Virus record (IMG/VR): IMGVR_UViG_3300027747_004557
Span: 1-25,509 of that record
Length of the DNA stretch: 25,509 bases
DNA from: a virus
Reading direction: 5' to 3' (one strand)
Position 1 is the first letter of the stretch. Every line of letters starts with the position of its first letter. The translations under genes and the position numbers were made by a program. The notes beneath the pieces were generated by a model. That model made no database searches. It was not told the DNA's origin and saw nothing but the letters and a program-made list of their open reading frames with translations. Shown piece by piece: positions 1,370 to 22,903 of the stretch.

Positions 1370-2083
1370 ATGAAACTGCTTCTGGAAAGCGAGCTGACCC
1401 CAGGGTCGGTCTTCGAGAACAGACTCATCCTCGGGGGCTGCGGATGCGCCGTCCTCAACGAGATGGATCTCCACGAGTCCGCCGGCAACGGCGGGATCGT
1501 CAAGTTCAGAGGCAAGTTCCAGGAGGCCGACGCCGTCAACAAGAACAAGCGGACCTACCCCTTCAACGTCCTCAACGACAACGTCAAGGGACTCCAGGAG
1601 ACCATCAAGAACGGCGGGCTGATCGGCGAGCTCGACCACCCCACCGACTCGATCGTCCACTTCGCAAACGCCAGCCACAAGATCACCAGACTCTGGTGGG
1701 ACGGCAAGACCCTCATGGGAGAGGGCGTCATACTGAACACGCCCCACGGCAAGATCCTCAAGGCGCTCATCAACGACGGTGTGCGCGTGGGAATCTCCAG
1801 CCGCGGGGTGGGCAACGGTAAGGTCAACGAGGAAGGCATCCTCGTCATCGGAGAGAGCTACAAGCTCATCACCTTCGACGCGGTCGCCGACCCCAGCACA
1901 AGCCAGGCATTCCAGGAGAAAGTGGTCTCCAAAGAAAGCGTGGCCCACGCGGCATCCCCGGAGGAAACCCGCGCGTCGATAAAAAATGAAGCCAGCGGCA
2001 TACATACCCTGAACAAGGAAATAGTTATTGCCGCCCTCGGCGGAATAATCCAGAAACAGGCCAAAGCCATAAAGAGAGGTTGA
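1370..2083 (+). CDS. 21: Prohead core protease, T4 gp21-like
   Basis: This 237-residue protein is a serine protease of the T4 prohead endopeptidase type (MEROPS S80, herpes-assemblin-like fold). Such proteases act inside the prohead: they cut scaffold, capsid protein N-termini and internal head proteins at L/I-x-E sites, then destroy themselves. Visible landmarks are the GELDHP motif with H90, the GISSRG motif with S143/S144 and the DAVADPS motif with D170 and D174. Their order and spacing match the H-S-D triad of the family. It starts at an ATG preceded by AAGGAG that overlaps the upstream stop codon. Its own stop overlaps the region just before the scaffold gene, so this is an operon. The last 50 residues are basic and lysine-rich, as expected for a removable tail. 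Function is confident; the exact catalytic serine (143 or 144) is not settled from one sequence. Confidence 0.93.
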   Translation: MKLLLESELTPGSVFENRLILGGCGCAVLNEMDLHESAGNGGIVKFRGKFQEADAVNKNKRTYPFNVLNDNVKGLQETIKNGGLIGELDHPTDSIVHFANASHKITRLWWDGKTLMGEGVILNTPHGKILKALINDGVRVGISSRGVGNGKVNEEGILVIGESYKLITFDAVADPSTSQAFQEKVVSKESVAHAASPEETRASIKNEASGIHTLNKEIVIAALGGIIQKQAKAIKRG

Positions 2084-2088
2084 ATCAA

Positions 2089-3009
2089 ATGGAAAAGATT
2101 GTCGAAGCTTTGACTAAGCTGCTCCCCGAGGAAGCGGTATCCGAGGTCACCGAGGCCGTCAAGACGGAACTAGAGTCCGCCAAGCAGACCCTCGAGACCG
2201 AGTACAACACCAAGCTCGAAGAGGCCTACGCGGAACTCTCCGACGAGCTCAAGGGCGCCGAAGAGACCGCCATCAAGGGCTACAAGGAAGCCTACGCCAT
2301 CATCACCGACCTGCGCGCCCGTCTCGAGACCCAGCAGAAGGAGTTCGAGGCCAGTATGGAAGAGGGATACGAAGAGGCCTACCAGATGCTCGTCGCCGAG
2401 AAGGGCAAGAACGAGAACCTCGAGGTCGAGATGTACGAGACCTTCGACAAGAAGCTCCAGGAGATGAAGGAGTACATGGTCGACAAGGTCGACGCATTCC
2501 TCCAGTACAAGGGCTCGGACATCTACGAGAGCGCCCGCAAGGAGCTCGAGAACGACCCGCGCACCAGCGAACACAAGGTCGCGCTCGACAAGATCGTCGA
2601 GGCCGTGGCCAGCTACATCGGCGAAGAAGGGACCGTCGCGACCGACTCGGCCAAGACCGACGAGCTCGCCCGCAAGGTCGAGGAGATCAAGGCCCAGGTC
2701 AAGATCCTCGAGGCCAGGAACATCCGCCTCAGCGCCGAGAACACCAAACTTACCGAGGCCGTCAGGGAGCAGCAGAAGGTGCTCACCGAGTCGGTCAAGG
2801 CCGAGAAGAAAGAAAGAGCCGAAAGAGCGAAGAATGTGCAGGGGAGAGGACGTGCCGTCAACGAGGCGGAGGTAGTCGCCGAATGGACCGGAGACAAGAC
2901 CGCCAAGCCTGCCAAGGCAGACAACGTTGACAATACCCTGGTCGAGAGCATCGACCCGGACCTGCTACGTCAAATGCAGGTGCTAGCCGGGACGAAGAAG
3001 GAAGACTAA
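2089..3009 (+). CDS. 22: Prohead scaffold (core) protein, T4 gp22-like
   Basis: The product (306 residues) is almost entirely E, K, A and L with heptad-like spacing, predicted as long coiled coils over about residues 1-130 and 190-255. There is little else in it. That composition, and the position between the protease and the major capsid protein, are those of the T4 gp22 main scaffold, which forms the core around which the shell assembles and is then degraded by gp21. The TTG at 2080 would give three extra residues, but the ATG at 2089 has AGAGAGG about nine bases upstream and is preferred. The last 60 residues are less charged and end in a short leucine-rich helix, which in scaffolds often contacts the shell. 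Direct sequence similarity to gp22 is weak by eye, so the call leans on composition and gene order. Confidence 0.85.
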   Translation: MEKIVEALTKLLPEEAVSEVTEAVKTELESAKQTLETEYNTKLEEAYAELSDELKGAEETAIKGYKEAYAIITDLRARLETQQKEFEASMEEGYEEAYQMLVAEKGKNENLEVEMYETFDKKLQEMKEYMVDKVDAFLQYKGSDIYESARKELENDPRTSEHKVALDKIVEAVASYIGEEGTVATDSAKTDELARKVEEIKAQVKILEARNIRLSAENTKLTEAVREQQKVLTESVKAEKKERAERAKNVQGRGRAVNEAEVVAEWTGDKTAKPAKADNVDNTLVESIDPDLLRQMQVLAGTKKED

Positions 3010-3047: not shown

Positions 3048-4475
3048 ATGCAAGCTAATGCAAAGTTCCTGAATGAAGCAAGGGAGCTGGAATCTCGTTG
3101 GGCGCAGACGGGTTTGCTAGAGAACATAAGCGACAAGTACACACGTTCTTGCACTGCCGTTCTCCTCGAAAACCAGCGCCTGATCAACGAGTCCTCGACC
3201 GACTCGGGCGACGTCGCCCAGTTCAAGAGGATCTCGATTCCGCTCGTTCGTAGAATCTATCCGCAGCTGATCGCCAACAAGGTCGTCAGCGTGCAGCCGC
3301 TACTCGGCCCGACCGGCCTCGTGTACTACCTCCGCTTTCGCTACGGTAGCAACAAGGGTTCCGTCCGCGGCGCCACCAAGAGCGGCTTCCCGACCGACGA
3401 CGTCAACTCGCTCCAGCAGCTCGCCTCCGGCGACGCCAACCTGAGCGTGTACTACTCGCACCAGTTCGTAGAGAACGAGTCGAGCAGCACCGACGCCGGC
3501 GGCACCAGCACGTCGCACGTCCTCGAGCACACCCCGGTCCTCGCCGGCACGGTGACGGGCACCGTGTACGACGGAAGCGTCGCAGTCCAGACCTTCGTGG
3601 TCTCGGAAAGCGGCTCGTTCACGTTCTCCGACATCAGCACACCCTCGCACAAGGTCACCAGCGCCACGCTGAACCTGACCACCGGCGAGATGGGCCTGAC
3701 GTGGAACAGCGACCCGGGTGCGAACCATGTCGTCGTCTCGTACGAGTACAACATGGAGTGCAACCAGGACCTCCCCGAAATCAACCTCGTCGTTGAGTCG
3801 GAAGAGATCGCTGCCAAGACCCGCAAGCTGAAGGCCGTCTGGAGCTACGAAGCCCAGCAGGACCTCCGCTCGCAGCACAACCTCGACGCCGAGGCTGAGC
3901 TCACCGCCGTCCTGGCACAGGAGATCAACCTCGAGATCGACCGTGAGGTTCTCTCGGACCTGCGCAACAACGCCGGCACCGTGGCCTCGTGGGACTTCAA
4001 CACCGCCCTTGGTGACACCATCAAGGAAAAGTACGAGTCCCTCTACGTCAAGGTCGTCGAGGTCAGCAACGTGGTGCATCGCAAGACGCTCCGCGGCGGC
4101 TGCAACTGGCTCGTGACCAGCCCCGAAGTCGCCTCGATCTTCGAGACGGCCACCGCTGGTTTCGCCCCGGCTCCGTCGGAAGGTTTCACCAGCTCGCTCG
4201 GCATCCAGTATGTCGGCACGGTGAACAACCGCTGGAGGCTCTACAAGGATCCGCTGTTCCCCACGGGACAGATCCTCATGGGCTACAAGGGCGACTCGTA
4301 CATGGACAGTGGTTACTTCTACTGCCCGTACGTGCCACTCACCCAGACGCCAGTCGTGCTCGATCCCGAGTCCTTCTGCCCGCGTAAGGGAATTTTAACA
4401 AGGTATGGGAAGAAGCTGCTAAGAGAGGGCGCGAAATTCTATGCCCGCCTCTCGATCGCAAATTTTGTGATATAG
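3048..4475 (+). CDS. 23: Major capsid protein, T4 gp23-like
   Basis: This 475-residue protein is the shell subunit. The stretch around residues 63-100 (VRRIYPQL, then QPLLGPTG, then LRFRYG) matches the conserved core of T4 gp23 (VRRAIPNL, QPMNSPTG, LRAVYG). As in gp23, an N-terminal delta domain is probably removed by the protease: FLNE before A11 and LINE before S49 both fit the L/I-x-E rule. About residues 165-255 are rich in T, S, V and G with a YDGSVAVQTF / TLNLTTGEMGL pattern, a beta-rich insertion seen in many relatives. The region beginning SYEYNMECNQDLPEINLVV returns to the conserved capsid fold. The gene has a good AAGGAG site eight bases before ATG and is followed within 30 bases by a strong terminator, consistent with very high expression. 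Confidence 0.95.
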   Translation: MQANAKFLNEARELESRWAQTGLLENISDKYTRSCTAVLLENQRLINESSTDSGDVAQFKRISIPLVRRIYPQLIANKVVSVQPLLGPTGLVYYLRFRYGSNKGSVRGATKSGFPTDDVNSLQQLASGDANLSVYYSHQFVENESSSTDAGGTSTSHVLEHTPVLAGTVTGTVYDGSVAVQTFVVSESGSFTFSDISTPSHKVTSATLNLTTGEMGLTWNSDPGANHVVVSYEYNMECNQDLPEINLVVESEEIAAKTRKLKAVWSYEAQQDLRSQHNLDAEAELTAVLAQEINLEIDREVLSDLRNNAGTVASWDFNTALGDTIKEKYESLYVKVVEVSNVVHRKTLRGGCNWLVTSPEVASIFETATAGFAPAPSEGFTSSLGIQYVGTVNNRWRLYKDPLFPTGQILMGYKGDSYMDSGYFYCPYVPLTQTPVVLDPESFCPRKGILTRYGKKLLREGAKFYARLSIANFVI

Positions 4476-4503: not shown

Positions 4504-4537
4504 AAACCCGCTTGGGGAAACCCAAGCGGGTTTTTTT
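4504..4537 (+). terminator. Intrinsic terminator after the major capsid gene
   Basis: A perfect 13-bp stem (AAACCCGCTTGGG pairing with CCCAAGCGGGTTT) closes a GAAA tetraloop and runs into seven T residues. It lies 28 bases after the capsid stop codon. The opposite strand reads the same stem followed by TTTAGTTTT, so it may also stop transcripts of the convergent endonuclease gene, whose stop codon lies inside the T run. Confidence 0.95.
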
Positions 4538-5708
4538 ATGCCTTTACCTGGCAAAATTCAACATGGGAAAGCATCTTGAGTTGCTTCAGGTCTATGCTGT
4601 TTGACTTGAGGTATTTCTCGTCAACATACATGAACTCAAACCCATTTTGTTTGCAGAACTTTTGTCCCGCATCAACTTTGTACCCGACCTCTTGCTCCTT
4701 CATCCTAAAGGCGGGTTTTATTTCAGCCAAGAGTGGGCATTTTGATTTCCTGAAGGCAAAGAAGTCCGGTATGTAGTTCCTGATCACACCAGGAGCCTTC
4801 TCATACTGTATTGCGAATGGTTCATTCTCATACCAAGCCACATCTTCATCATTGTCAAAAATGTAGTGCATCATTAATTCAAGGCTTGACCTGAAGAAGG
4901 CCTTTTCTTTTTTGCACTTGGAGCTCGTGAAATACCCTGTGATGTAGAAGCGCTTGTCCTCGGGGTTAAACTCACCAGACAAAATCTTCTCTGTCATCCT
5001 CTGGCTCTGCTTCTGGTTCCACTCCTCGGGTCTGACAATGCCCTTTGCCCAAGGGGCGGCCCAAGACTCAGCCAGCCAGTCCCGGCAGTTCTCCCGCAGG
5101 TAGTCCTTCATCTCTGGGAGTTGGTTGTAATGCTCAACCCCGTATCTCTGGAGAGTGGTCTGCGCCATCTTGATCCTGACCTCTGGGGTCTGGGCGACAT
5201 TCTCTACTCCGTACCTTTCCATGTTGGTTTTCTTGGTCTTCTTTTTGACCTCCTCGGACTGCATGGCGTGATCAACACCGTACTTCTCCTGTATGGTCTG
5301 GCGCTGGCGCTCCTTGGTCTCTTTGAGGTGCATGGGGTGTTCCACCCCGTACCTTTCCAAGGAGGTCTGCCTGTGTTTCTCCACCCACTGCTTCTTGAAC
5401 TCTTCGTCCTTGAACTTGGCCTTCCTCTCCTCGACCAGCTCCTTTTTGTTCAAGGGCATCTCCATGCCATACTTCTCAAGGCAAGTTTTCTTGATCTTTT
5501 CCTGAGCATCCTTGCTCTTCATGGGGTTCTTGTTTTTCATGAAGCACTTTCGGCAGATGTGCTTTCCTCCGTTGTCGCCGAAGTTCTTTTCGGCATACCG
5601 CAACTTCAGCATTCTCTCTTGGCCGCATGTTTCAAATCCCCCGTCGCAGTCGTACTTTATCTTGACATCGTGGCTCTTGATGACGCCTTCTGTTTTTTCT
5701 AGGTACAT
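4536..5708 (-). CDS. Freestanding PD-(D/E)XK endonuclease, putative homing type
   Basis: This is the only clear gene on the minus strand. The start at 5708 gives 390 residues and has AAGGA eight bases upstream; an upstream ATG at 5738 would run into a palindrome. Residues about 20-60 contain two cysteine pairs (CxxxxxxC and CRKC), a probable zinc site. Residues about 80-195 hold five copies of a (E/Q)(K/R)YG(V/M)(E/D) repeat, spaced about 20-35 residues apart, as seen in phage-encoded homing-type endonucleases and probably contacting DNA. The C-terminal domain has E277 in RSSLE, D315 in YIPDFF and E329/K331 in AEIKP, the ordered residues of a PD-(D/E)XK nuclease. It sits convergent to the major capsid gene, a common site for phage homing endonucleases. 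Nuclease fold is well supported; homing activity is inferred. Confidence 0.82.
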   Translation of the reverse strand: MYLEKTEGVIKSHDVKIKYDCDGGFETCGQERMLKLRYAEKNFGDNGGKHICRKCFMKNKNPMKSKDAQEKIKKTCLEKYGMEMPLNKKELVEERKAKFKDEEFKKQWVEKHRQTSLERYGVEHPMHLKETKERQRQTIQEKYGVDHAMQSEEVKKKTKKTNMERYGVENVAQTPEVRIKMAQTTLQRYGVEHYNQLPEMKDYLRENCRDWLAESWAAPWAKGIVRPEEWNQKQSQRMTEKILSGEFNPEDKRFYITGYFTSSKCKKEKAFFRSSLELMMHYIFDNDEDVAWYENEPFAIQYEKAPGVIRNYIPDFFAFRKSKCPLLAEIKPAFRMKEQEVGYKVDAGQKFCKQNGFEFMYVDEKYLKSNSIDLKQLKMLSHVEFCQVKA

Positions 5709-5720
5709 ATTGTTTTTCCT

Positions 5721-5757
5721 TGCGTGATTGACTACCATATATGTAGTAAGTCACGCA
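5721..5757. promoter_or_regulatory. 37-bp near-palindrome between divergent genes
   Basis: The two arms (TGCGTGATTGACTAC and GTAGTAAGTCACGCA) pair at 13 of 15 positions plus one G-T wobble, around a 7-base loop CATATAT. It lies between the start of the endonuclease gene on the minus strand and the zinc-ribbon gene on the plus strand. It could be an operator, a hairpin in either leader, or a nuclease target. No convincing -35/-10 pair was found next to it. Confidence 0.6.
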
Positions 5758-5775: not shown

Positions 5776-6169
5776 ATGAATCAAGAAGAAAAAAGGCTGG
5801 CAGAGAAGAGGGCGGCTTGCAACGAGAGGGTCAAGAAGCACTATGCCGAGAAGATCGCCACCGACAAGGTCCAAGTCTACTGCGAGTACTGCCAGGTGAC
5901 CCACGAGGCCCTCCGGCTCACCTACGACAAGAACATAGCCCGCAACGGCAGGTACATCTGCGAGCGCGAGGGAGGGCACATAGCGGGCAGCAGGCCCAAG
6001 CCACATCTCAGGAAGGCCAATCCCTACGAGGCGGAGGGGAAGAAGGAGTGTCTGGGGTGCAAGCAAGTCCGTCCTTCCCCTTGATTCCTTCAGTTCTGGC
6101 AAGAGCAAGTGCAAGGAGTGCAGGAGTCGGTCTGCAAAGGAGAAATATGCCAAGAAGAAGGCTAGATAG
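5776..6169 (+). pseudogene. Small zinc-ribbon protein gene, broken by a 4-bp duplication
   Basis: Translation from ATG 5776 gives a basic protein with CEYC, then CEREGGH, then ECLGCKQV, and stops at 6084. GTCC occurs twice in tandem at 6067-6074. Removing one copy restores the frame through FSSGKSKCKECRSRSAKEKY to a stop at 6169, a 129-residue protein. The restored end matches the copy at 9642-9870, where the same C-terminal motif (CLGC...L..F......CKECR...NEKYA.KK) is intact. Paired CxxC motifs of this spacing are common in zinc-ribbon proteins linked to phage HNH nucleases, but no HNH motif is visible, so function is unknown. SD-like GAAAGG precedes the ATG. Its last codons (AAGAAGAAGGCTAGATAGGGC) form the leader of a vestigial downstream ATG. 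Confidence 0.75.
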
Positions 6170-6172
6170 GGC

Positions 6173-6202
6173 ATGAAGAAGTTCAAAAAATATTCGGAAT
6201 AA
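6173..6202 (+). other. Vestigial start of a capsid-targeted gene (MKKFKKYSE)
   Basis: Directly after the zinc-ribbon stop, a 9-codon frame begins MKKF, in the same position relative to GCTAGATAGGGCATGAAG as the complete genes at 7322, 9878 and 10537. It then stops. It looks like the remnant of a lost cassette whose body was replaced by the AT-rich gene at 6247. It is too short to be called a gene. Confidence 0.35.
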
Positions 6203-6246
6203 GGCACATTCCTTTAACTTGTCAGTGAATCAATGGCGGGGCTAGT

Positions 6247-7245
6247 ATGAAAATATTTGAAGTGGGTTTAGGATCAGAAAAGATATTAGTATGTCAATAT
6301 GCTCCGAGCATACAAATTCAATCTGCTCTTGATCCCATTTCAAAAGAGTATTTTCTAAAGATATTCAAAAGTAAAAAGCCTAACATAGATGAATTCGCTC
6401 ATTCATATGTGCCAGCAGACACAAGTGGTCAAAGTATGGGTGCTAGAATGGTAGTATACAGCGATGCGAAGATTGTATTGGGCAAGGCTCCTAATCATGC
6501 ATATTTAATGTATCAACCTGGGTCTGTTGGGTCTAGGGTTGAGGGGTATTATTCTACAAAAAAGAAATCTATTGTTTTTTCGGGCGAGGAAAACAGTCAA
6601 TATTCTCAGGCTTTTGATAATCGATCTTGGAAAACTATTTTTTCTCGTCTTTCTATAAGTGGGCTTGTGGATGACAATTGGAAGATAAGGGGCTGTCCGC
6701 CGGTGTGTGGCGAAAGAGAATTCGTTAATGTGGGAGAAATTATATCGGGGTACTGGGATAGTGGTGTAGAGGGAAAAGAAAAAACATTGAAAAGAAAAGA
6801 TGCAGAAAGCTTGGTTCAGAACTTTAGGATTAAAAAGGCAATACAAAATAAAGATTTAAATCACATGGCGTATTTGTACAGATATGCAGACGGCCAGGTT
6901 CACTCGGGCAGAATCAAGACCTTCCTAGAGTGGCTTGGCGGTGGTTTTCTCTACCACGGGGCCGATCCGGACAACAGAGAAAGCATAAGGGCACAGGGGC
7001 TGAAGGCGAGCAATCCTGCCGAGGACGATTCCGACCTCCACGACGAAGGAGAGGAGAGAAGGGGTGTTTGGGTTTTTGAGGACATAGAGGACGCCATGGA
7101 GTGGGGCCAGGACGTGTGGGAGGTTGACGCTCGCGGACTTGAAATGGGAGACCTAGTGGGCGAGGAACATTCCTTTGTAAAGTCGGATATTCCTCCAAAC
7201 CGCATAAGGCTTGTCGTTGCGGCCGGCGAGAGGCTCGCCTCCTAG
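6247..7245 (+). CDS. Two-part protein with a C-terminal ADP-ribosyltransferase-like domain
   Basis: This 332-residue protein has two parts of different composition. Residues 1-220 are encoded by AT-rich DNA unlike all neighbours; I do not recognise that part. From residue 222 the DNA becomes GC-rich and reads RIKTFLEWL, the capsid-targeting-like peptide that begins the neighbouring genes, but with ATC where they have ATG. Residues 234-330 look like an ADP-ribosyltransferase fold of the KptA/DarT kind: YHGA at 236-239 followed by NRESIRAQGL, then GVWVFEDIEDAMEWG (273-287), WEVDARGL and finally SDIPPNRIRLV. In T4 the head-packaged Alt protein is also an ADP-ribosyltransferase with a targeting peptide. 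The NAD-binding role is inferred from motifs. The start (ATG 6247) follows GGGG in a leader repeat. Confidence 0.7.
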   Translation: MKIFEVGLGSEKILVCQYAPSIQIQSALDPISKEYFLKIFKSKKPNIDEFAHSYVPADTSGQSMGARMVVYSDAKIVLGKAPNHAYLMYQPGSVGSRVEGYYSTKKKSIVFSGEENSQYSQAFDNRSWKTIFSRLSISGLVDDNWKIRGCPPVCGEREFVNVGEIISGYWDSGVEGKEKTLKRKDAESLVQNFRIKKAIQNKDLNHMAYLYRYADGQVHSGRIKTFLEWLGGGFLYHGADPDNRESIRAQGLKASNPAEDDSDLHDEGEERRGVWVFEDIEDAMEWGQDVWEVDARGLEMGDLVGEEHSFVKSDIPPNRIRLVVAAGERLAS

Positions 7246-7320
7246 GGCTGTCATCACTTAAAATGAGTTCCTATGGGTCTCGCCAACGAGAAATACGCCC
7301 TTAAAATGGCTAGATAGGCG
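7235..7320 (+). repeat. Cassette leader repeat, copy with zinc-ribbon gene tail
   Basis: The block starts with TCGCCTCCTAGGGCT, overlapping the end of the ADP-ribosyltransferase-like gene. It continues through a diverged spacer to the tail of the zinc-ribbon gene (encoding NEKYALKMAR stop) and GGCTAGATAGGCGC directly before the next ATG. A second copy lies at 8087-8170. Confidence 0.65.
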
Positions 7321-7321
7321 C

Positions 7322-8008
7322 ATGAAGACATTTTACGAATGGTTGAAGGCGGACCCGGAGAAGGAGATTGAGGCGAAGAATGCGCTCAACATGACCGTGA
7401 GTCTGCCGAGTTCGGGTGGCGGGCACATTTTTGACTTCATCGGTGGCCTCACGAGGGGGTTCCACCTGAACACGGTGGTGGGCAGGATGATGACTCCTTG
7501 GACGAACACTCTCACCATTGAGAGTTGGCGGAGGTCGCTCGCCGAGAACCTGAGGGGTGACGACGGCATGCCGAACGACAACTTCATGGCCGCCTACGAC
7601 CTTTTCAAGAACGAGATCGCCATGGCGGTTCGGGACCTGCCCCACAAGTCCGCCAGGGACGTAAGGACGGACGCCGAAGTGGACGTGCTCGGTCCCTCAA
7701 AGGAGTTCCTGAAGGGTTACGAAGGCGATTCGGAGGGTTATCTGACGCACTTGGGGAGGGCCTTTGAAATTTGCATGAAGGTCTTTCCGCCGAAGACATT
7801 TTCTAGCGTTGCGCTCCAGCAGTCGGACAACTTCAGGAACTTCTTGGAGCTGGTGCGGGACGAGTTCATGACGTTCGGGGAGAGGCTGCCCGCGATGAGG
7901 GACGGCGGGCTGGAGCGCAACAGGGATGAGGAGAAGAAGATAAACAGGGCCATACGCAAGTACGAGTCGTTCAGGAGGCGGGTTTTCGGTGGGCTCTACG
8001 GCTCCTGA
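7322..8008 (+). CDS. Unknown protein with capsid-targeting-like N-terminus (MKTFYEWL)
   Basis: The 228-residue product begins MKTFYEWLKA, close to the T4 internal-protein targeting peptide MKTYQEFIAE. I do not recognise the rest. Visible features are a glycine-rich stretch (SSGGGHIFDFIGGLTRG, about residues 30-46), a helical middle and a basic C-terminus (RNRDEEKKINRAIRKYESFRRRVFGG). No clear L-x-E cleavage site for the prohead protease follows the peptide. The ATG follows GGCTAGATAGGCGC, the leader shared with neighbouring cassettes. Base composition is GC-rich like the head operon. Packaging in the head is inferred from the N-terminal peptide and from the neighbouring protease; the biochemical role is unknown. 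Confidence 0.72.
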   Translation: MKTFYEWLKADPEKEIEAKNALNMTVSLPSSGGGHIFDFIGGLTRGFHLNTVVGRMMTPWTNTLTIESWRRSLAENLRGDDGMPNDNFMAAYDLFKNEIAMAVRDLPHKSARDVRTDAEVDVLGPSKEFLKGYEGDSEGYLTHLGRAFEICMKVFPPKTFSSVALQQSDNFRNFLELVRDEFMTFGERLPAMRDGGLERNRDEEKKINRAIRKYESFRRRVFGGLYGS

Positions 8009-8189
8009 TTAGCGGCCTTCGCCTCCGCCAGTTTGTAGGCCGTGTTCACGAGGCGGTCCCAGTTTTTCTCAACTTACTCGGGCGGGTCGCCTCCTAGGGC
8101 TAGTATCAAATAAGATGAGATGGGGAGGCTCTCGGCCAACGAGAAATATGCGAAGAAGAAGGCTAGATAGGAGCAACCAAGGATATCAC
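8009..8189 (+). repeat. Intergenic region with a second leader repeat and zinc-ribbon gene tail
   Basis: Bases 8087-8101 (TCGCCTCCTAGGGCT) repeat 7235-7249, including the last codons of the ADP-ribosyltransferase-like gene. A diverged spacer and the zinc-ribbon tail (SANEKYAKKKAR stop, 8132-8170) follow. Bases 8097-8110 also match 6239-6252 at 13 of 14 positions, where the ATG of the gene at 6247 lies. Bases 8009-8086 hold no gene; on the minus strand they read as a short helical peptide (NWDRLVNTAYKLAEAKAA), perhaps the remnant of a lost gene. Confidence 0.6.
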
Positions 8190-8597
8190 ATGAAAAGTTT
8201 CAACGAATGGCTAAAAGATAAAAAATTAGAAGAAGGTATAGCAGACTATACCCCAGGTTTCATTAGAAAGCCTTTGCAGAATTTGGGCTTGATGGGCAGA
8301 ACCACTGAGGAAGAAGAGGCCGCGGAACGCAGAAGATACTTGAGGAGCCCGCAGTATGCGGCAATGAAAAAAGCGGAAGAGGAAGACGAGAAGAAAGAGT
8401 TGGAAATGATGAGGAAAAAGGCAAGAGAGGATCGCCACGCACGAGGCATGGAAGAAATAAGAAAAAAGAGGGAGGAAGAAGCTCTTGAACGGAAGAAAAA
8501 GGAAGATAGAGGATTGATATATGATTATAAAACAGGAGAGTGGCGTCTTCCAGTGGTAGGCAAAAGAGAAAGAGAAGACTGGCCTTATGGTGGTTGA
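8190..8597 (+). CDS. Charged helical protein with capsid-targeting-like N-terminus, putative internal head protein
   Basis: The start at 8190 is chosen because it gives MKSFNEWLKDKKLEEG. Upstream codons from 8115 only read the leader repeat in a wrong frame. The 135-residue product has the targeting-like peptide followed by L-E-E before G16, a good match to the prohead protease site (L-x-E before G, A or S). The middle, about residues 40-108, is almost all E, K, R, A and M with few hydrophobics, a single long helix or coiled coil. The end (GLIYDYKTGEWRLPVVGKRE) is a short non-helical tail. Size, charge and peptide resemble T4 internal proteins, which enter the cell with the DNA. No enzymatic motif is visible. 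Confidence 0.72.
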   Translation: MKSFNEWLKDKKLEEGIADYTPGFIRKPLQNLGLMGRTTEEEEAAERRRYLRSPQYAAMKKAEEEDEKKELEMMRKKAREDRHARGMEEIRKKREEEALERKKKEDRGLIYDYKTGEWRLPVVGKREREDWPYGG

Positions 8598-8612
8598 TGC
8601 CCACTTTAAAAC

Positions 8613-9608
8613 ATGAAAAATTTCTATGAAATGATGATGCTGATGGAGGCGGAGACGCTCCAGAAGTCCGACCCGGTTGCCTTGAGCAAGGTTGATCCAA
8701 ACGTGGCCAAGGTCGCGGTCGTCAGTGGCCAGAACGATGGGAATATTAAAGACGACCCCATTCAGGCCAACATGAACGCATCGGGCCCTGTTTCTGAACT
8801 CAGGCCCACACAAAGCACCCTCGTGTCTGACAAGGTGTTGACTTTCGCTCTAGCTTACCTGAAGGGCGAAAGTTGGATGGACCTGTCGAAGATGGATGCA
8901 ATCGTATCGGGGGACAAAGCAATAATGGACGGCCATCATAGGTGGGCAGCAGCCTTGATAGTCAATCCTGGCATGTCTGTCAATTACACGCTTATAAATC
9001 TTCCTCTTCAGAAGTTGATAAGCATACTGAATGTCTACACAAAGGGGGCTCTAGGCAAGGATAAGGGGAATCCAGACGCTGGAGAGACGCTTGCCCAAGC
9101 CTTTGCGAATCTGGAGTCAAAGATAAGGAATGCGTTTTCCAATGGGTTCCAGAGTGGCAAGTCGGCCTACGACGCACAGACCATGAAGTCCCTAATGGCG
9201 AAGATGCCAGGATCAAACGGAGATCCCAACAAGGGAATGGAGCAGATGGTGCAGAACGCGAATGCTGTTGCCTCCAATGCGAACATGACAAAGTCTGCCA
9301 CCAACCTCGCCAGGGCCGACATGCCGGTGATAGACAAAGACCAAGTGGCAAAACTAGTTTCGGATTTGAAGTCTGGCGCTGTGGATGTCATGCGGCCTTA
9401 CAGCAGGGAAGTATTGTCCGCTATTGGCGGGCAGAAAAATGTAGCCACCCAACAGCCCCAAGGCCAGGTCAATCAAGCCAACCTGCCTCGGCAGAATCAA
9501 ATGGCGAATCAGGCTCCTCAGCAACAGCAACTTCAAGCCGCCCACACAAGTCACAAGGGGACGAGTCTCAACGAGTGGCTTGTTCTTAGTGGAATCAAGA
9601 GCAACTAA
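8613..9608 (+). CDS. ParB/sulfiredoxin-like protein with capsid-targeting-like N-terminus
   Basis: The 331-residue product begins MKNFYEMMMLMEAE, with L-M-E before A13 fitting the prohead protease rule. Residues about 75-150 hold a ParB/Srx-type core: a predicted strand IVSGDKAIMDGHHRWAAALI with D106-G107-H108-H109-R110, the signature of the nucleotide-binding loop in ParB N-terminal and Srx-like domains. Residues 150-260 are helical with repeated ANA/SNAN stretches, and 275-310 are rich in Q, N and A. The C-terminus contains SLNEWL (318-323), a second copy of the targeting-like motif. ParB-like domains can bind CTP or act as ATP-dependent phosphotransferases or nucleases; which applies here is not clear. 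No helix-turn-helix was recognised. It starts 15 bases after the previous gene without a strong SD. Confidence 0.7.
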   Translation: MKNFYEMMMLMEAETLQKSDPVALSKVDPNVAKVAVVSGQNDGNIKDDPIQANMNASGPVSELRPTQSTLVSDKVLTFALAYLKGESWMDLSKMDAIVSGDKAIMDGHHRWAAALIVNPGMSVNYTLINLPLQKLISILNVYTKGALGKDKGNPDAGETLAQAFANLESKIRNAFSNGFQSGKSAYDAQTMKSLMAKMPGSNGDPNKGMEQMVQNANAVASNANMTKSATNLARADMPVIDKDQVAKLVSDLKSGAVDVMRPYSREVLSAIGGQKNVATQQPQGQVNQANLPRQNQMANQAPQQQQLQAAHTSHKGTSLNEWLVLSGIKSN

Positions 9609-9641
9609 AACTTGACTTGGATTGGCTTATTTCTGGCCTCA

Positions 9642-9870
9642 AATCTGCGAGCGCGAGGGAGGGCATATAGCGGGCAGCAGGCCCAAGCCCCATCTCCGGA
9701 AGGCCAACCCCCATGCGGCCTCGGGATGCAAGGAGTGCCTTGGGTGCAAGCAGGTTTTGACCTTTGACAATTTCGGCACTGACAAGGGCCGTTCGGACGG
9801 TTACGCCAGCAAGTGCAAGGAGTGCAGGAGGAAGGCGGCCAACGAGAAATATGCGAGGAAGAAGAGCTAG
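9642..9870 (+). pseudogene. Zinc-ribbon protein gene, copy 2, 5' truncated
   Basis: From ICEREGGHIAGSRPK to its stop, this copy aligns with the gene at 5776-6169 and keeps the C-terminal zinc ribbon: CLGC, F.NFGTDKG, KCKECRRKAANEKYARKKS. The first half, including the CEYC motif, is missing, and only a TTG at 9622 could start it. It ends eight bases before the next gene. It may be a short functional zinc-ribbon protein, but truncation is the simpler reading. Its last codons carry the purine-rich leader AGGAAGAAGAGCTAGATAGGGC. Confidence 0.68.
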
Positions 9871-9877
9871 ATAGGGC

Positions 9878-10387
9878 ATGAAGACCTTCCTCCAGTGGCT
9901 CGAGAACGCAAACCTCGCGGACATAGAGCAGATTGCAAGCGGCCTCCGTTTCATGCCCACCAGCAAGAAGAAACTAGTTTACCAGTATGTGCAGTCTTCT
10001 GAGAACATGCCTCCGATGAGCTACGCGGTCGCTCAGCGTCAGATGCCCGTCGCGACGATGACTGCGGACGGGATGGAGACGCAGAATGTGGCCGAGCCGA
10101 ATGACGTGATCATGAGCGGGCCGAGCGGGGAGCAGTATGTGGTCAAGGCCGCCAAGTTCCCGAAGCTCTACTATGGTCAGATCGGCGGGCCGGTTCATCC
10201 CGAACAGGGGCCGAGGAATGTCGCGGTGTACACGGGGGATCAGCCGGTGGAATTCACCGCCCCTTGGGGCGAGAGCATGGTTCTGAAGCCGGGCGACTAC
10301 CTCGTGAAGGAAGCGGAGGGCAAGTACTACCGCATCGCCAAGCACGAGTACGAGATGACCTACAACCCTCCGGGCAAGGTGGGGTGA
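9878..10387 (+). CDS. PGDYG-domain protein with capsid-targeting-like N-terminus
   Basis: The 169-residue product begins MKTFLQWLENANLADIEQ, a targeting-like peptide with no clean L-x-E-G/A site after it. Residues about 85-165 carry a beta-rich domain with VVKAAKFPKLY, PVEFTAPWGE, PGDYLV at 138-143 and YYRIAKHEYEMTY. This matches the small PGDYG family, named for its PGDYG motif and of unknown biochemical function. The ATG follows the conserved leader GCTAGATAGGGC. GC-rich composition matches neighbours. Family assignment is by motif; packaging in the head is inferred from the N-terminus. Confidence 0.75.
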   Translation: MKTFLQWLENANLADIEQIASGLRFMPTSKKKLVYQYVQSSENMPPMSYAVAQRQMPVATMTADGMETQNVAEPNDVIMSGPSGEQYVVKAAKFPKLYYGQIGGPVHPEQGPRNVAVYTGDQPVEFTAPWGESMVLKPGDYLVKEAEGKYYRIAKHEYEMTYNPPGKVG

Positions 10388-10394
10388 GTTCTTC

Positions 10395-10531
10395 TCGGAA
10401 TCCAAGACGGGAACATAGGTCTGCGGGGCGGCCACATCGTGGGGAGCAGGCCCAAGAAGAAGAAGGCCAATCCCCACGAGGCGGAGATGGCTCTCAGCGA
10501 ATGAGAAATGTGCGAGGAAGAAGGCCTAGAT
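10395..10531 (+). pseudogene. Zinc-ribbon protein gene, copy 3, eroded remnant
   Basis: The stretch at about 10416-10487 reads LRGGHIVGSRPKKKKANPHEAE in one frame, matching EREGGHIAGSRPKPHLRKANPYEAE of the first copy. It then jumps by deletion to SANEKCARKKA at 10494-10531. No continuous frame remains. The end (GAAGAAGGCCTAGATAGGGC) is kept as the leader of the next gene. Confidence 0.65.
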
Positions 10532-10536
10532 AGGGC

Positions 10537-10959
10537 ATGGGGACTTTCCTTGAGTGGTTGAAGTTGCACGAGGGCGGTGGTCCTCTGTCGGAGCGAGAGT
10601 TCTTCGACCAGTACGCCCAGCACATCGACATCCGCGGGTCTCGGGACGGCACGGCGGCGGCCAACCGGGAGTCGATCCTCAGGGACGGCTTCAGGAGGGG
10701 CATCAACGTCAACGCCCTTCCGCCCTCGCGGGGAGGCTCCCCTTCTAACGTGGTGGGCATGAACTTCGCCCCAAGGGCCGGGGACGTGGTCTATCTCGCC
10801 CCTCGGGGCGCGTGGAAGAGTCGTCCCAACGGGATGGAGATCCAGGACGGCTGGGTGCCGCGTCCGTGGGAGGTGATCACCGTGGGCGAGGACGACGTCG
10901 GCAGGTCAATGTACGATCTATACCTGCGCTCGTGGCTGGCCCACAACGATCGGGGGTAG
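10537..10959 (+). CDS. Small ADP-ribosyltransferase-like protein with capsid-targeting-like N-terminus
   Basis: The 140-residue product begins MGTFLEWLKLHEGGG: the targeting-like peptide followed by L-H-E before G13, a good prohead protease site. Residues 31-125 look like a compact ADP-ribosyltransferase fold: DIRGSRDGTAAANRESILRDGF (D37-G38-T39 in the usual HGT position), GDVVYLAPRGAWKS and PWEVITVGEDDV. The NRESI.R.G(L/F) segment is shared with the domain at 6247-7245, which suggests a common ancestor. The histidine of the usual motif is absent. It is short compared with typical transferases and could be an inactive relative. Leader CCTAGATAGGGC precedes the ATG. It is the last gene of the cassette array; 80 unassigned bases separate it from the first fibre gene. 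Confidence 0.6.
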   Translation: MGTFLEWLKLHEGGGPLSEREFFDQYAQHIDIRGSRDGTAAANRESILRDGFRRGINVNALPPSRGGSPSNVVGMNFAPRAGDVVYLAPRGAWKSRPNGMEIQDGWVPRPWEVITVGEDDVGRSMYDLYLRSWLAHNDRG

Positions 10960-11039: not shown

Positions 11040-13631
11040 ATGACGAACATCATAAAGCACAAGAGGAGTTCCACTCCCGGTTCGGTGCCGGCGGCGTCGG
11101 ACCTGTCGCCGGGCGAGATCGCGATCAACGTCGCCGACGGCAAGCTGTTCGCGAGGAAGTCTGACGGCACTGTGGTCGAGCTGACATCGCCTGCGTCGGT
11201 GGACGGCGGGGAGGTCGTGTACGACAGCCTCACGGACGGCCTCGCGGCCTTCTGGCTGATGGACCGCACGGTGGGCAACGTCCAGGACGTCTCTGGCAAC
11301 GGCCGGAGCCTGCTCGTCCCGGTGGCGGCGGAGACGGCGACCCCCAGCGTGCAGGACGACGGTCTCCTGCTTTCTAGGCGCAACTTCATGTACTGCGACC
11401 ACGGGTTTACGGGCCGGAGGTCGGTTGCGTTCTGGCTGAAGCTGTACGCCTCTCCCTCGTCGGAGTTCTCGTTCATGTCGTTCGGCCAGTTCGGCTCATC
11501 GGAGGGCGCCGGCCAGGTCCGGGTGGGTACGGACCGCAAGATTTCGTGGGTGGAGCAGGCGGAGGGCTGGGCCGCGGTGGTCTCGTCCGCGGCGATACCT
11601 TTGGACGCGTGGACCCACGTGGTGCTGGTGCGCGAGGCGGCGACGGGGTCGTCCACGGCCAAGATATACATAAACGGGGCTTTGGACGCGACGGCCACTG
11701 GGCGTCCCGCGTCGATATCGGTTTCGGCGGGCGACGTGCTTTCTTTGGGTTCGTTCGGTTCGGAGGCTGTGGGCCTGGACTGCGCGGGCGTGTGGGACAG
11801 GGCTCTGACGGCGGAGGAGGCCTCGAGGCTGTTCGGCCCGTCCGAGGCGTACTCGCTTCCCCCTCTGGGCATCGCCCCGATAGACCCTTCGGCCTTCATC
11901 AATGTCGTGTCCGCTTCGGCGGTCGCGTCCTTGTCCATATCGGTGACGGGTTCGACCGGGTCGCTGCTGCCGGCCTTCGACACCGGCATCCACGACTACG
12001 TCGTGCTGACTGGTTCCGCCACGGCCGGGGCCCCGGTTTCCTTCACTCTCACAGTCAACGGCTCGTCGGCTTCTGGCGCCGGGGCCGTGAACAACCTCAT
12101 CAAGCTTTCGCACGGCTCCGACTCGTACTACATCAGGCTCCTTCCTTCCGACATGCCGTTGGGCACAGTGACGACCGCACCCAGGGCGGGCTACATATCC
12201 GGCTACTACGTGGCCACGAGCAGAAGGGACATCAACGCGGCGAACTACAACATAGTGTACAACAAGTACGGCCTCCCGGTGTGGTACGTGCAGAACCCCG
12301 GCACGCCCCACCTCCACCAGCCCGGCGAGGACAGGAACAGGCTCGCGGTCAGCCGCAACGGCGTGGGCACGAGGTACCTGATGCAGCTGTCTGACAGCGG
12401 CATCCCGACGCGGGCGCTGAACTTCCTGCCCACGGTGCGGAACGGCAACACCTACTCCTACGATTTCGGCAACCACGAACTGCTGGAGGTCAGGAGCCCG
12501 CCGGACCGCAGGGGCAACGTCATATACAACACTTTCGTGGCCACGCCCGCCGGCGGATCGCAGGCCGAGACCGACAAGGCGTACGGCGTGTACGTGCAGG
12601 AGCAGACCCCGGACGGTACGATAGCGTGGGAGTGGTGGACGAGCGACAGGTTCGACCAGACCTCCCTCGCGAAGAACGCCTCGTTCTTCCACATGAACTC
12701 GGTCGACGTCCACCCGGTCACCGGGGACATGCTCCTCAGCTGCCGCCAGTGTTCCGCGATCGTGTGCCTCGACTACGCAACCAAGGACGTCAAGTGGGTC
12801 ATCCAGGGGTCCTCGCAGCCGTGGGGCGGGATCGCCCAGTCGGCTAACCAGGCGACCCTGGACGGGGCCCAGTTCCTGACGCTCGAGGGCGAGCCGGAGC
12901 TGAACGGGTACCAGTACGTCGGCACCGAGGGGCAGCACCACGCCAAGTGGGCGACCCACGTCGACCCGCTGACGCCTGGCAACGAGGTCATATCCATCTT
13001 CGACAACCAGACGGGCTTCTTCCCTGGTGGCGGCACGCCGACCCTTAAGACGATCACCTCGCTTGTGCAGAGCGGCACCACGGTGACGGGCGTGTCGGCG
13101 GGCCACGGCTTCACGACGGGCTCGTACGTGAGGATCACCGGGGCGAACCAGAGCGTGTTCAACGGCATATTCACGGTCACCGTGGTCAACTCGAGCACCT
13201 TCACCTACACGGTGGGGTCGTCCGGTTCGGCGACGGCGACCGGCACCCTGCGGGGCCTGAAGGCCCTGACCTACTTCCCGCACAGCGTGAACTCGCCCGC
13301 GGCCAGAGGCGTCGTCTACGAGATAGACCTGACGCAGGGCAAGGCAATACACAGGTGCAGCGCCTTCTGCCCGACGGGGACCTCCGGTTACCTCGGGGGC
13401 TACCAGATCATGCTTCACGAGAACGGCGTGTACAGCCACGTGCTCGACTTCAACCAGCAGCACCCGCAGCTCATCGAGTACGCGGACTCCGGCGACGGGG
13501 CGAGCCCCGGGGCGGTGATATTCGCCGTCGACTTCGCGGGGGACATATACAGGATCACCAAGGTGCCGAAGGACTTCTTCGACATCGACTACCTGCGGGC
13601 GACCGCGGGCCTTTCACCGACCATAAACTAG
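11040..13631 (+). CDS. Tail fibre/adhesin with LamG module and arylsulfotransferase (ASST) propeller
   Basis: The 863-residue product has four parts. Residues 1-50 resemble the Mtd-type fibre N-terminus (KHKRSS..., LSPGEIAIN, DGKLFARKSDG). Residues 64-275 are a LamG/concanavalin-like module (AFWLMD ... WTHVVLVRE ... AGVWDRALTAEEASRLFG). Residues 285-375 form a cadherin-like beta sandwich (LLPAFDTGIHDYVV). Residues 376-863 match the ASST family: SGYYVATS, YNKYGLPVWYVQ, FHMNSVDVHPVTGDMLLSCR, EGQHHAKW, ISIFDNQ, RGVVYEIDL. H551, N553, R569 and H633 sit where, from memory, E. coli ASST has H356, N358, R374 and H436 (same 18-residue H-to-R gap). Residues 665-739 are an inserted beta domain. ASST enzymes move sulfate from one phenol to another. 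No signal peptide, as expected for a virion protein. Sulfotransferase activity is inferred. Confidence 0.85.
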   Translation: MTNIIKHKRSSTPGSVPAASDLSPGEIAINVADGKLFARKSDGTVVELTSPASVDGGEVVYDSLTDGLAAFWLMDRTVGNVQDVSGNGRSLLVPVAAETATPSVQDDGLLLSRRNFMYCDHGFTGRRSVAFWLKLYASPSSEFSFMSFGQFGSSEGAGQVRVGTDRKISWVEQAEGWAAVVSSAAIPLDAWTHVVLVREAATGSSTAKIYINGALDATATGRPASISVSAGDVLSLGSFGSEAVGLDCAGVWDRALTAEEASRLFGPSEAYSLPPLGIAPIDPSAFINVVSASAVASLSISVTGSTGSLLPAFDTGIHDYVVLTGSATAGAPVSFTLTVNGSSASGAGAVNNLIKLSHGSDSYYIRLLPSDMPLGTVTTAPRAGYISGYYVATSRRDINAANYNIVYNKYGLPVWYVQNPGTPHLHQPGEDRNRLAVSRNGVGTRYLMQLSDSGIPTRALNFLPTVRNGNTYSYDFGNHELLEVRSPPDRRGNVIYNTFVATPAGGSQAETDKAYGVYVQEQTPDGTIAWEWWTSDRFDQTSLAKNASFFHMNSVDVHPVTGDMLLSCRQCSAIVCLDYATKDVKWVIQGSSQPWGGIAQSANQATLDGAQFLTLEGEPELNGYQYVGTEGQHHAKWATHVDPLTPGNEVISIFDNQTGFFPGGGTPTLKTITSLVQSGTTVTGVSAGHGFTTGSYVRITGANQSVFNGIFTVTVVNSSTFTYTVGSSGSATATGTLRGLKALTYFPHSVNSPAARGVVYEIDLTQGKAIHRCSAFCPTGTSGYLGGYQIMLHENGVYSHVLDFNQQHPQLIEYADSGDGASPGAVIFAVDFAGDIYRITKVPKDFFDIDYLRATAGLSPTIN

Positions 13632-13649
13632 CGAGACCACCAGGAGAAA

Positions 13650-16600
13650 ATGTCAGCGAAAATACAGTTCAAGAGAGGCACGAGGGCGGACCTTCACGCC
13701 GTGAACCCTGTCCTGCTGAGGGGCGAGGCCGCCGTCGAGATCGACACGGGCAAGGTCAAGTACGGCGACGGCGCCACAGCCTGGCGCGACCTGCCGTACG
13801 GGCGCGTGGAGGTCGTGGACGGCGGAGTTGTTCCCGGGGCTTCATCGGTTACCACAACCATAAAGCTGAGGAGGGGGGCCGCGTCTGGCCTGTACGACGC
13901 GAACCCCGTGCTGGCCGCGGGCGAGCCGGCGCTAGAGACCGACACGAACAAGTTCAAGTACGGCGACGGCGAGACGGCCTGGCGCGACCTGCCCTACGCG
14001 ACCTTCGACGCGATCGACGGCGGCGAGATATCGCCCGTGCCGCCGGGTGGCACCGAGGAGTTCAGCCCGCCCAACCTTCCCGGCCTGGCCCTGTGGCTCG
14101 ACGCGTCCGACGCCAACTACGTGTCGATGGTCAACAACAGGGTGTCGCAGTGGAGCGACAAGTCCGCCAACAGGAGGCACTTCTTCCAGTCACTCAAGGC
14201 GTCCCGGCCCGTCAACTCCAACACGGTCAACTCCCTCGGGGTGGTGACGTTCGACGGCGAAAACGACGCGATGCTCTCGAGCTTCGAGCTCGGTTCGGAG
14301 TTCACGCTGTTCGTCGTGCTCAACGCCAGGGGCAGCAGCACGGACGGCAGGGTGCTCACGGCCCTGAACCACGCGACGGACACCGACCCGGCCGGGTTCA
14401 TACCCTGCATCACCGAGGACGGCAACAACGTCGGGGTGCGTGTCGGTTCTGAATACTTGGGCATGCAGGAGATCACGACCTTCGCCCCGGCGGTCTACGG
14501 CCTTTCGTGCTCCGCGGAGTCGTTCACCACCAGGCTGAACGGCCTGAACCCCCTGGCCGTGGAGAACTCGATTTCGGATTCGTTCACGGACTTCGCCCTC
14601 GGCTCCTCCCGAGCCAGCTACGCGTCGGGGGCCTTCGACGGCGACGTGGCGGAGGTCGTCCTGTACGAGGGCGTCCTGTCCGACGAGGACCGGCAGACGG
14701 TGGAGGCCTACCTCCTTGGCCGCTGGGGAATTACGCAGGTCGTGCACCCGCTTCTCAACGGCATGACGGCGTTCTGGCCGATGAACGAGGAGAACGGCAG
14801 CCGGGAGGACGCCAGCGGCAACAATAAGACATTTGTCGTGGGGACTGGCGCGGCCTCACAGGTGGTCAATTCTAGTTCGGGTGTAATTGGCCGCGCAGCC
14901 ACATTCACCGGCGATAACTATTTGGAAGCTGACATTGTTACGCCGGTCACTTCGTTTTCTTGCTGGTTCAAGATTGATCCGGCCAACGCACAAAAAGCCT
15001 ATCATCAACTTATTGGTCAATGGAAATCCGGCGGTTCGTGGATATTGAATCACACGCCAACCGGCATAAACATGACCATTAATAACGGTGACGCGTCAAT
15101 TTTAGAAAACGGCGTCAATCTCGCTGACGGCCTGTGGCATCACGTCGTCGGCACGTACGACAACGGCACTTATCGCCTGTATGTCGACAACGAAGTCTAC
15201 GGCAGCGTTGCGTCCACAGCCCCTGCCAACTCTTCCGAAACTCGCAAACTCCGTGTCGGCATTTGTGACTACGACGACGGTAACGATTACCGTACGATCG
15301 GTTCTATCGACTCAGTCGGCGTTTGGTCTCGTACGCTTTCGCCGCTTGACGTAGCGATGTTATACAACGCTGGTTTCGGTAAGGAAGAATTCGCTGTCGA
15401 CCTTTACGGCGACAACGTGTCGCTCCTGCTCCACATGAACAGGCTGCCCAATGCGGCCACGGGAGGCGGAGGAACGGATCAGTACTGGGACAACGTGTCG
15501 CTGCTTCTTCATATGGACGAGGACTTCGCCGATTCGTCCGCGAACGACAGGCAGGTGGTCACCTCCGGATCGGTGTCGATAAGTGCCTCGGAGAGCAAGT
15601 TCGGCGGCGGCAGCGGGTCGTTCGACGACATGGCCTCCCATTTAGAGATGGAGACTTCGGTGGGGGACCTCGGGCCGGGTGACTTCACCCTAGAGTGTTG
15701 GATTTACACGAACGTGGAGCTCGGGTACTACAGGACGCTCTGCGGGAATTTCGGGGGGTGGATCGGGCCGAGCCGGGTCTGGCAGCTATTGAACCTCAGC
15801 GGTAGCGGCACTCTGGGTCTGATGTACGTGGACGACTACGGGTCGGGCCACGACGTCACGGGCGTAAACGCGACGATACCCGTCGGTGAGTGGTCGCACT
15901 ACGCGCTAGTACGCAGCGGGGGAACCGTGCAGTCGTTCGTGAACGGCGTGAGCCAAGGTACCGATTCTTTGGGGCAGGACTTCAGTTCGCCCACTCAGGA
16001 CGGAAGCCCGGCCCCGTTCTGGCTGGGTCACACGCCCGAGAACATCTACGGACGCAACTGGTACGGCTACATCGACGACCTCCGCATCACAAAGGGCGTC
16101 GCTCGTTATACGGCTGACTTCACCCCGCCGACGGTCGCGTTCCCCAACGGGCCGGTTACAACTGCTTCAATGCCGGAAGTCTCCACCGCTCTCCTATTGC
16201 ACTTTGACGGGGCCAACGGCAGCACGACGTTTACAGACTCGTCGCCGAATATGCTGACGGTTACGGCGCATGGAAACGCTGTTATTAGTACGGCACAAAG
16301 TAAATTTGGCGGAGCAAGCGTGTATTTTGATGGATATGGCGATTTATCTTTTACTCCAACAGATGCTACTAAATTTGGAACTGGTGATTTCACTGTTGAG
16401 TTTTGGTTGCACGCTACCGATGCTCCACAAGATAACCAAGTAATTGTATCTCTTTGTGTTTGGCCAAATAGCACAGGATTTGTCATAAATTACGGAAATT
16501 CAGTAATTACAATTCTGGATGGAAATTTTAATAATTATCGATGTGTTGAAGTAGGTTCATTTAATCAGTGGCACCACTACGCATTTGTGCGTCAATCGGG

Positions 16601-22901: not shown

Positions 22902-22903
22902 CC

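Follow-up and report, generated by a model that had tools for sequence, protein, structure and literature searches.

What is the role of a peptide shared by adjacent and otherwise dissimilar genes? The question is raised by the virus record IMGVR_UViG_3300027747_004557, 25.5 kb from a T4-like giant phage of environmental origin, hereafter called the window over its full length (25,509 nucleotides). An array of genes found there next to the major capsid protein gene opens with variants of one short N-terminal peptide (the tag), followed by bodies that differ from gene to gene. In a first-pass annotation the tag had been likened to the peptides that take internal proteins of T4 into the prohead. 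The array very probably encodes head-packaged cargo, equipped with a T4-type capsid-targeting sequence (CTS), cleaved, probably injected, expressed as a late regulon and enlarged by cassettes. Packaging is well supported, as far as sequence can tell; injection and counter-defence are steps that we infer.

The shared start and the T4 capsid-targeting sequence

The array comprises five intact tag genes (7322, 8190, 8613, 9878 and 10537), one relic (6913) and one vestige (6173). The start peptides of the intact genes and of the vestige, all found where the first-pass annotation had placed them, are given in Table 1. The relic had been described as a sixth gene with an internal IKTFLEWL. This peptide is indeed present, and was originally an N-terminal tag, because in locus L013 the same domain, 81% identical, is encoded by a free-standing MKTFLEWM gene with ATG and upstream box. 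An orphan AT-rich segment (6186-6912, 38% GC) is inserted in the 57% GC window in frame with the relic; no relative of the N part of the resulting fused open reading frame (ORF) was found among the related loci compared.

The tag is not due to chance, since the core K[TSNKRI][FYL]..[WFYM][LMIV] follows 4 of the 29 early methionines of the called window genes (a count that leaves out the G2 variant at 10537) and is found at 1 of 8078 other positions. A search of related phage genomes for the same start, suggested in the first-pass annotation, found tags genome-wide. Seven related records (1.5 Mb) have 1240 genes with an ATG start; a more permissive tag pattern opens 101 of them, and matches 9 when placed at residue 31 instead.

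Among the first ten residues of T4 internal protein III (IPIII), mutants have shown 4 and 7 to matter for targeting, and 8 and 10 for processing (PMC9026906). Tags in the window and in its relatives feature an aromatic residue at position 4, another at position 7, and L, I, V or M at position 8, and E is enriched shortly after. All five window genes have F4; W7 is found in four, and is replaced by M7 in 8613. As in T4, the peptide occupies the very N-terminus of proteins that are not related in the rest of their sequence. A strict form of the motif, searched in 82 kb of T4 DNA that cover ipI, ipII, ipIII and the head genes, matched ipII and ipIII only, ipI being one residue short of it. A looser form, allowing only F at position 4, was discarded as a T4 control: it misses the internal proteins, where the residue is Y or a variant, and matches two other T4 ORFs. 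The T4 control is therefore based on the stricter motif. The exact tag peptides were searched for in published papers, and none was found.

A CTS fitting M-x(1-5)-F-x-x-[W/F/Y]-[L/I/V/M] would bind the prohead scaffold core, and a gp21-type protease would then remove the tag after a [L/I/V/M]-x-E site in many cargo proteins. The window encodes together an S77 prohead protease, a gp23 shell protein and a scaffold core protein, the last identified by position only. The protease is presumably the enzyme cleaving the tags, and the scaffold-like product, as judged from gene position, is presumably the tag receptor. All tag genes are located downstream of these T4-type genes; the first-pass annotation had described them as next to the capsid and protease genes. 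Between gp23 and the array, a TnsA-like endonuclease gene in antisense orientation and a zinc-finger remnant, which is broken, are also found.

Sites of the gp21 type (L/I-x-E) are enriched at the tag or immediately behind it. Of 92 W-type tags, 38 have [LIVM]xE, followed by A, G, S or N, in the next 14 residues; in 2000 shuffles the mean was 11.3 and the maximum 23, and the site is hence 3.4 times commoner than in shuffles. The residue after [LIVM]xE is A, S, N or G in 35 of 56 cases. In one tagged family, [LI]xE/A is found right behind the tag in 6/6 members (the slash marks the putative cleavage point). Window genes 8190, 8613 and 10537 carry sites of this type (Table 1).

This part of the evidence bears on the alternative that the peptide directs proteins to a site in the infected cell, either the replication compartment or the membrane, and not to the prohead. 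Several tagged bodies are nucleic acid or nucleotide enzymes, and the tag could make a short amphipathic helix, as would suit a cellular address. However, in the 82 kb of T4 searched, the motif marks internal head proteins only, and a prohead-protease-type site behind the tag would be needless for a localisation signal. Primase and DNA polymerase, moreover, lack a convincing tag plus box. An address of this sort is very unlikely. Primase and DNA polymerase had been tried as candidate tagged proteins, and rejected: they have no late box, the primase start is much alike in most records, and both look like false positives of the search pattern. The presence of the peptide in non-virion proteins, regarded in the first-pass annotation as damaging to its reading, is thus not seen for these two enzymes; the tagged RNA-repair proteins, helicases, DnaJ and nucleotide enzymes remain ambiguous, as they may be packaged or not.

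Constant leader and tag, differing bodies

The bodies are unrelated, as previously noted: pairwise DNA z-scores are about 0 (highest 3.3). Leader and tag are common to the cassettes while the bodies differ, and the 60 bases upstream of the starts at 6173, 7322, 8190, 9878 and 10537 have pairwise z-scores of 8 to 15. Similarly, 105 tag proteins from the related records and the window make up 88 body families.

The leader ends in a conserved box. In 0.77 Mb, including the window and near relatives, the 10-mer TAGATAGGGC has 16 unique exact copies, all directly abutting an ATG. Fourteen open a tag gene; the exceptions are the MKKF vestige of the window and one aborted start, MKFP-stop. More generally, the sequence TANATA, separated by 4-5 bases from an ATG with no room for a Shine-Dalgarno sequence, and resembling the T4 late promoter, precedes 112 genes in the seven records. 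The tag is found in 53 of these, and in 48 of the 1128 genes that lack the arrangement (odds ratio 20, p 7.5e-34). The spacing of T4 late promoters would put the transcript start at or near the ATG, which suggests that tag genes with an abutting box make leaderless late mRNAs. The tag genes would accordingly be a late regulon, in which many members have the box 4-5 bases from the ATG and no ribosome-binding site. The window gp23 gene is preceded by an ordinary AAGGAG.

The origin of the leader can be traced. It corresponds to the 3' end, box included, of a gene encoding a TnsA-like endonuclease with a C-terminal zinc finger. In relatives the endonuclease is intact, spans 370-507 amino acids and ends inside the box, and a tag gene follows immediately. 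In the window only remnants are found (Table 1); the remnant at 5776..6168 is 85% identical to DNA at 9643-9755 over 113 nucleotides. It is plausible that, next to the capsid gene, the set grows by cassettes, the 3' end of the TnsA-like (homing-type) endonuclease gene preceding with its box successive tag genes, and that leader and tag stay constant while bodies are swapped. Recombination through the leader repeat, helped by the endonuclease, would explain the exchange of bodies.

Could the common start be then a by-product at the DNA level, a translation-enhancing leader of leaderless mRNAs copied by recombination, the peptide having no role? The cassettes have both upstream DNA and tag DNA in common, and box and tag are strongly linked, as expected from such a process. 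However, when 72 tags are compared, the residues F, W and L are invariant, whereas the codons for F and L end in a nearly random base; F and W being criteria by which the tags were chosen, the informative part is the freedom of the third bases. Furthermore, the peptide is kept in genes having a Shine-Dalgarno sequence and no box (8190 and its relatives), and the PGDYG body keeps the tag when the adjoining sequence is replaced. This body is 79-85% identical between loci (L013, L029), and the stretch linking it to the tag is a zinc-ribbon-like segment in L013 and a Q-rich linker in L029. As read from the codons, selection is acting on the tag peptide, and a mere DNA by-product is extremely improbable. 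Conserved residues, specificity in T4, cleavage-type site, unrelated bodies and constraint at the peptide level all favour the capsid-targeting role originally suggested.

A broader proposal is that giant T4-like phages have a cargo-cassette system, in which a portable 5' module (endonuclease 3' end, leaderless late promoter, CTS) captures bodies, and provides each genome with its own, rapidly changing set of injected proteins for counter-defence and RNA repair. The proposal is tentative, with the chances somewhat against it.

Two sets of proteins with related starts were also observed. One is a recurring box-preceded family of about 175 amino acids (L182:11523-12056, and similar proteins in G002, G003, L042 and L055), in which some starts are clearly tagged (MRFHNWL, MEFTKWL), and others are degenerate (MENLWLE). 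The other is found around a prohead-protease-like gene in L146 (918-4407), where several proteins share a different start pattern (MKITESYIREIIKEEI, MKLTKEVLKRIINEEI, MKKNELKKILKPLIKEC), which may represent another kind of head-targeting N-terminus.

Table 1. Head module and tag array of the window. A slash marks the putative cleavage point.
Position	Strand	Feature	Evidence or remarks
1370..2083	+	Prohead core protease, T4 gp21 type (S77)	PF03420 1.6e-28; phrog_207 1.6e-49
2080..3009	+	Scaffold-like protein, gp22 position	Between protease and capsid genes; matches of coiled-coil type only
3048..4475	+	Major capsid protein gp23	PF07068 1e-84; phrog_138 2e-82
4536..5738	-	DUF7487 + TnsA-like endonuclease gene, directly 3' of gp23	PF24308 2e-27; PF08722 3e-10
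5776..6168	+	Zinc-finger C-terminal remnant of TnsA-like endonuclease, out of frame near end	Late-box copy at 3' end
6163..6172	+	Late-promoter-like box TAGATAGGGC	Abuts vestige ATG
6173..6202	+	Tag-gene vestige, MKKFKKYSE-stop	Sequence; upstream 60 nucleotides common with intact cassettes, z 10 to 15
6247..7245	+	Fused ORF; N part orphan and AT-rich (GC 0.38), joined to the relic tag-domain gene at 6913	
6913..7242	+	Relic, IKTFLEWL + ADP-ribosyltransferase-like domain LYHGADPDNRESIRAQGL	ATG and box lost
7311..7321	+	Box TAGATAGGCGC	Abuts ATG of 7322
7322..8008	+	Tag gene 1, MKTFYEWL, 228 amino acids	Body without assigned family
8164..8173	+	Leader copy with TAGATAGG	A short way before tag gene 2, which has an AAGGA of its own
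8190..8597	+	Tag gene 2, MKSFNEWL, MKSFNEWLKDKKLEE/G, 135 amino acids, charged, repetitive	Protease-type site LEE/G
8613..9608	+	Tag gene 3, MKNFYEMM, MKNFYEMMMLME/A, 331 amino acids, DGHHRWAAA motif (ParB/Srx-like, weak)	phrog_2859 3e-11; site LME/A
9643..9870	+	Second endonuclease zinc-finger 3'-end remnant	
9868..9877	+	Box TAGATAGGGC	Abuts ATG of 9878
9878..10387	+	Tag gene 4, MKTFLQWL, 169 amino acids, PGDYG domain	PF14083 8e-8
10426..10530	+	Third endonuclease 3' remnant, more decayed	
10527..10536	+	Box TAGATAGGGC	Abuts ATG of 10537
10537..10959	+	Tag gene 5, MGTFLEWL, MGTFLEWLKLHE/G, 140 amino acids, orphan body	No relative among loci compared; site LHE/G

The probable cargo and comparison with known systems

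Within the window, PGDYG is the sole firm domain call among the bodies, and confirms the first-pass assignment. Two other labels fared less well. The ADP-ribosyltransferase (ART)-like label is at motif level only, with no significant Pfam match in the window, and stays tentative. The ParB/Srx-like label given to 8613 did not hold at the level of models, as ParB_N and ddrB-ParB found no match in the window; weak matches to ParB-like free serine kinase are limited to the DGHHRW motif, and this label too is tentative. A relative of the 8613 body is encoded in the unrelated contig L146, directly after a gene reading like a prohead protease. The C-terminal region of the 8613 protein ends with (T/P)SLNEW(L/A)-LSGIK, a second tag-like EW peptide conserved in L045:13135-14166. 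Body 7322 has 40% identical relatives in L008 and L014, both tagged, and tagged relatives of gene 8190 are found in L068 and L045 at 68-75%. Sequence searches of the PDB with 6928-7242 and the 10537 product gave no match.

Related records larger than 130 kb that were scanned host roughly 10 to 27 candidates each, most without known function. Domains could be assigned to some. An ArdC N-terminal anti-restriction domain is tagged in G002 (26 bits, cut-off 22.6), and the set includes two SNF2/DEAD helicases, each of about 950 amino acids. Tagged PARP/KptA-like proteins match the Pfam PARP model (E 0.001) and, as a profile, the solved KptA structure (E 0.001); this family differs from the window 6913 domain. 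An RNA ligase, two AAA_33 kinases (polynucleotide kinase type), tRNA nucleotidyltransferases and RNase T are on the RNA side, and NUDIX, DnaJ and FMN reductase proteins are also tagged.

In polyvalent proteins, which are delivered together with the DNA of phages and plasmids, ArdC, ART and SNF2 serve as hub domains (PMC5512222), and the anti-restriction protein DarB of P1 is packaged in the head by an N-terminal signal (PMC9024508). The domain set fits injected counter-defence proteins. Mature bodies would remain with the DNA in the head, and most probably pass into the host upon infection. There they might act against early defences, restriction among them, or mend the resulting damage; RNA-repair cargo may be an answer to tRNA-cleaving defences.

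Several results weigh against packaged and injected cargo. Genes 7322 and 9878 have no clear protease-type site. Ordinary genes show [LIM]xE[AGSN] in 18% of cases against 8% in shuffles, a smaller excess which indicates that part of the cleavage-site signal reflects general N-terminal composition. Tagged DnaJ, sigma factor and thymidylate kinase have ordinary intracellular roles. Structure predictions were uninformative: AlphaFold2 gave a pLDDT (predicted local distance difference test) of 37 for the window ART-like domain, from 2 sequences, and the tagged ART-like family from relatives reached 60, from 6 sequences. Foldseek and VIA-align 2 found only helical-bundle matches from the middle part, and no ART chain among the matches listed.

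The tagged proteins might, on the other hand, be structural or assembly parts of the prohead core, of the gp67/gp68 type, and not be injected. A conserved tagged protein of 100-130 amino acids is found near head genes in many relatives, and the 8190 product is highly charged and repetitive, features that a core component could have. Yet near relatives have different bodies, with enzyme and anti-restriction domains among them, which would not be expected of a conserved assembly part, and a core role for the set is unlikely.

Head-packaged cargo is best compared with IPI, IPII, IPIII and Alt of T4 (Mullaney and Black 1996; PMC3012670, PMC9026906). Both have an N-terminal tag whose residues 4 and 7 are aromatic, L/I-x-E processing, unrelated bodies, the gp21/gp22/gp23 head system and possibly ADP-ribosyltransferase-like cargo. 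In contrast, T4 has a handful of such genes where long records here have about 9 to 27 each, and here the array lies beside gp23, a late-promoter-like box abuts the ATG and endonuclease 3' ends are repeated. None of the window bodies, compared to PHROG and Pfam, matched a family named as T4 internal protein. P1 Dar proteins similarly use an N-terminal peptide to take anti-restriction cargo into the head, but lack a consensus N-terminus, whereas here one consensus is found on many bodies. ArdC-N, ART, SNF2 ATPase and possibly ParB/Srx are shared with polyvalent proteins (Iyer et al. 2017, PMC5512222). Those are multidomain, with 2-15 domains per polypeptide; here single domains with a common removable tag prevail, and the window tag proteins, 135-331 amino acids long, have at most one recognised domain.

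Distribution and neighbouring genes

The array is a narrow-lineage feature, because the exact leader-plus-tag DNA was found in a handful of IMG/VR contigs only. The tag and box regulon spans records, one of them of 533 kb, with a gp23 about 83-98% identical to that of the window. In the 35 kb around gp23 of Flavobacterium phage immuto, and in 41 kb of LR756508, the tag was not seen, bar one weak match; the expanded system is hence not general to all gp23 phages.

The packaging of varied proteins by means of the CTS has been proposed for T4-like phages in reviews on T4. The system described is no new principle, being a much enlarged variant of the T4 internal-protein system. No description of its scale, of the linked promoter box or of the endonuclease-derived leader was found in the papers searched. 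As to the cargo that enters the cell with the DNA of giant phages, tag plus adjoining box provide a list of candidate head-carried proteins, obtainable from sequence. Tagged proteins are candidate anti-defence proteins, and the tags candidate signals to load chosen proteins into large capsids. The putative leaderless late promoter linked to the tag is a testable point on gene expression in these phages.

The endonuclease gene located antisense right behind the capsid gene recalls T4 segD, found between genes 23 and 24. The T4 enzyme is of the GIY-YIG type; here the gene is TnsA-like, and another TnsA-like type, in sense orientation, has given the 3' end that is now the repeated leader. In relatives the same spot (window 4536-5738) hosts several different TnsA-like types.

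Beyond the array, the region 11040-25264 encodes a protein of 3083 amino acids with many LamG-like repeats, flanked by two proteins with an arylsulfotransferase fold. The second of these has a Mtd_N-type start and YadA-head repeats. All are likely host-binding fibres.

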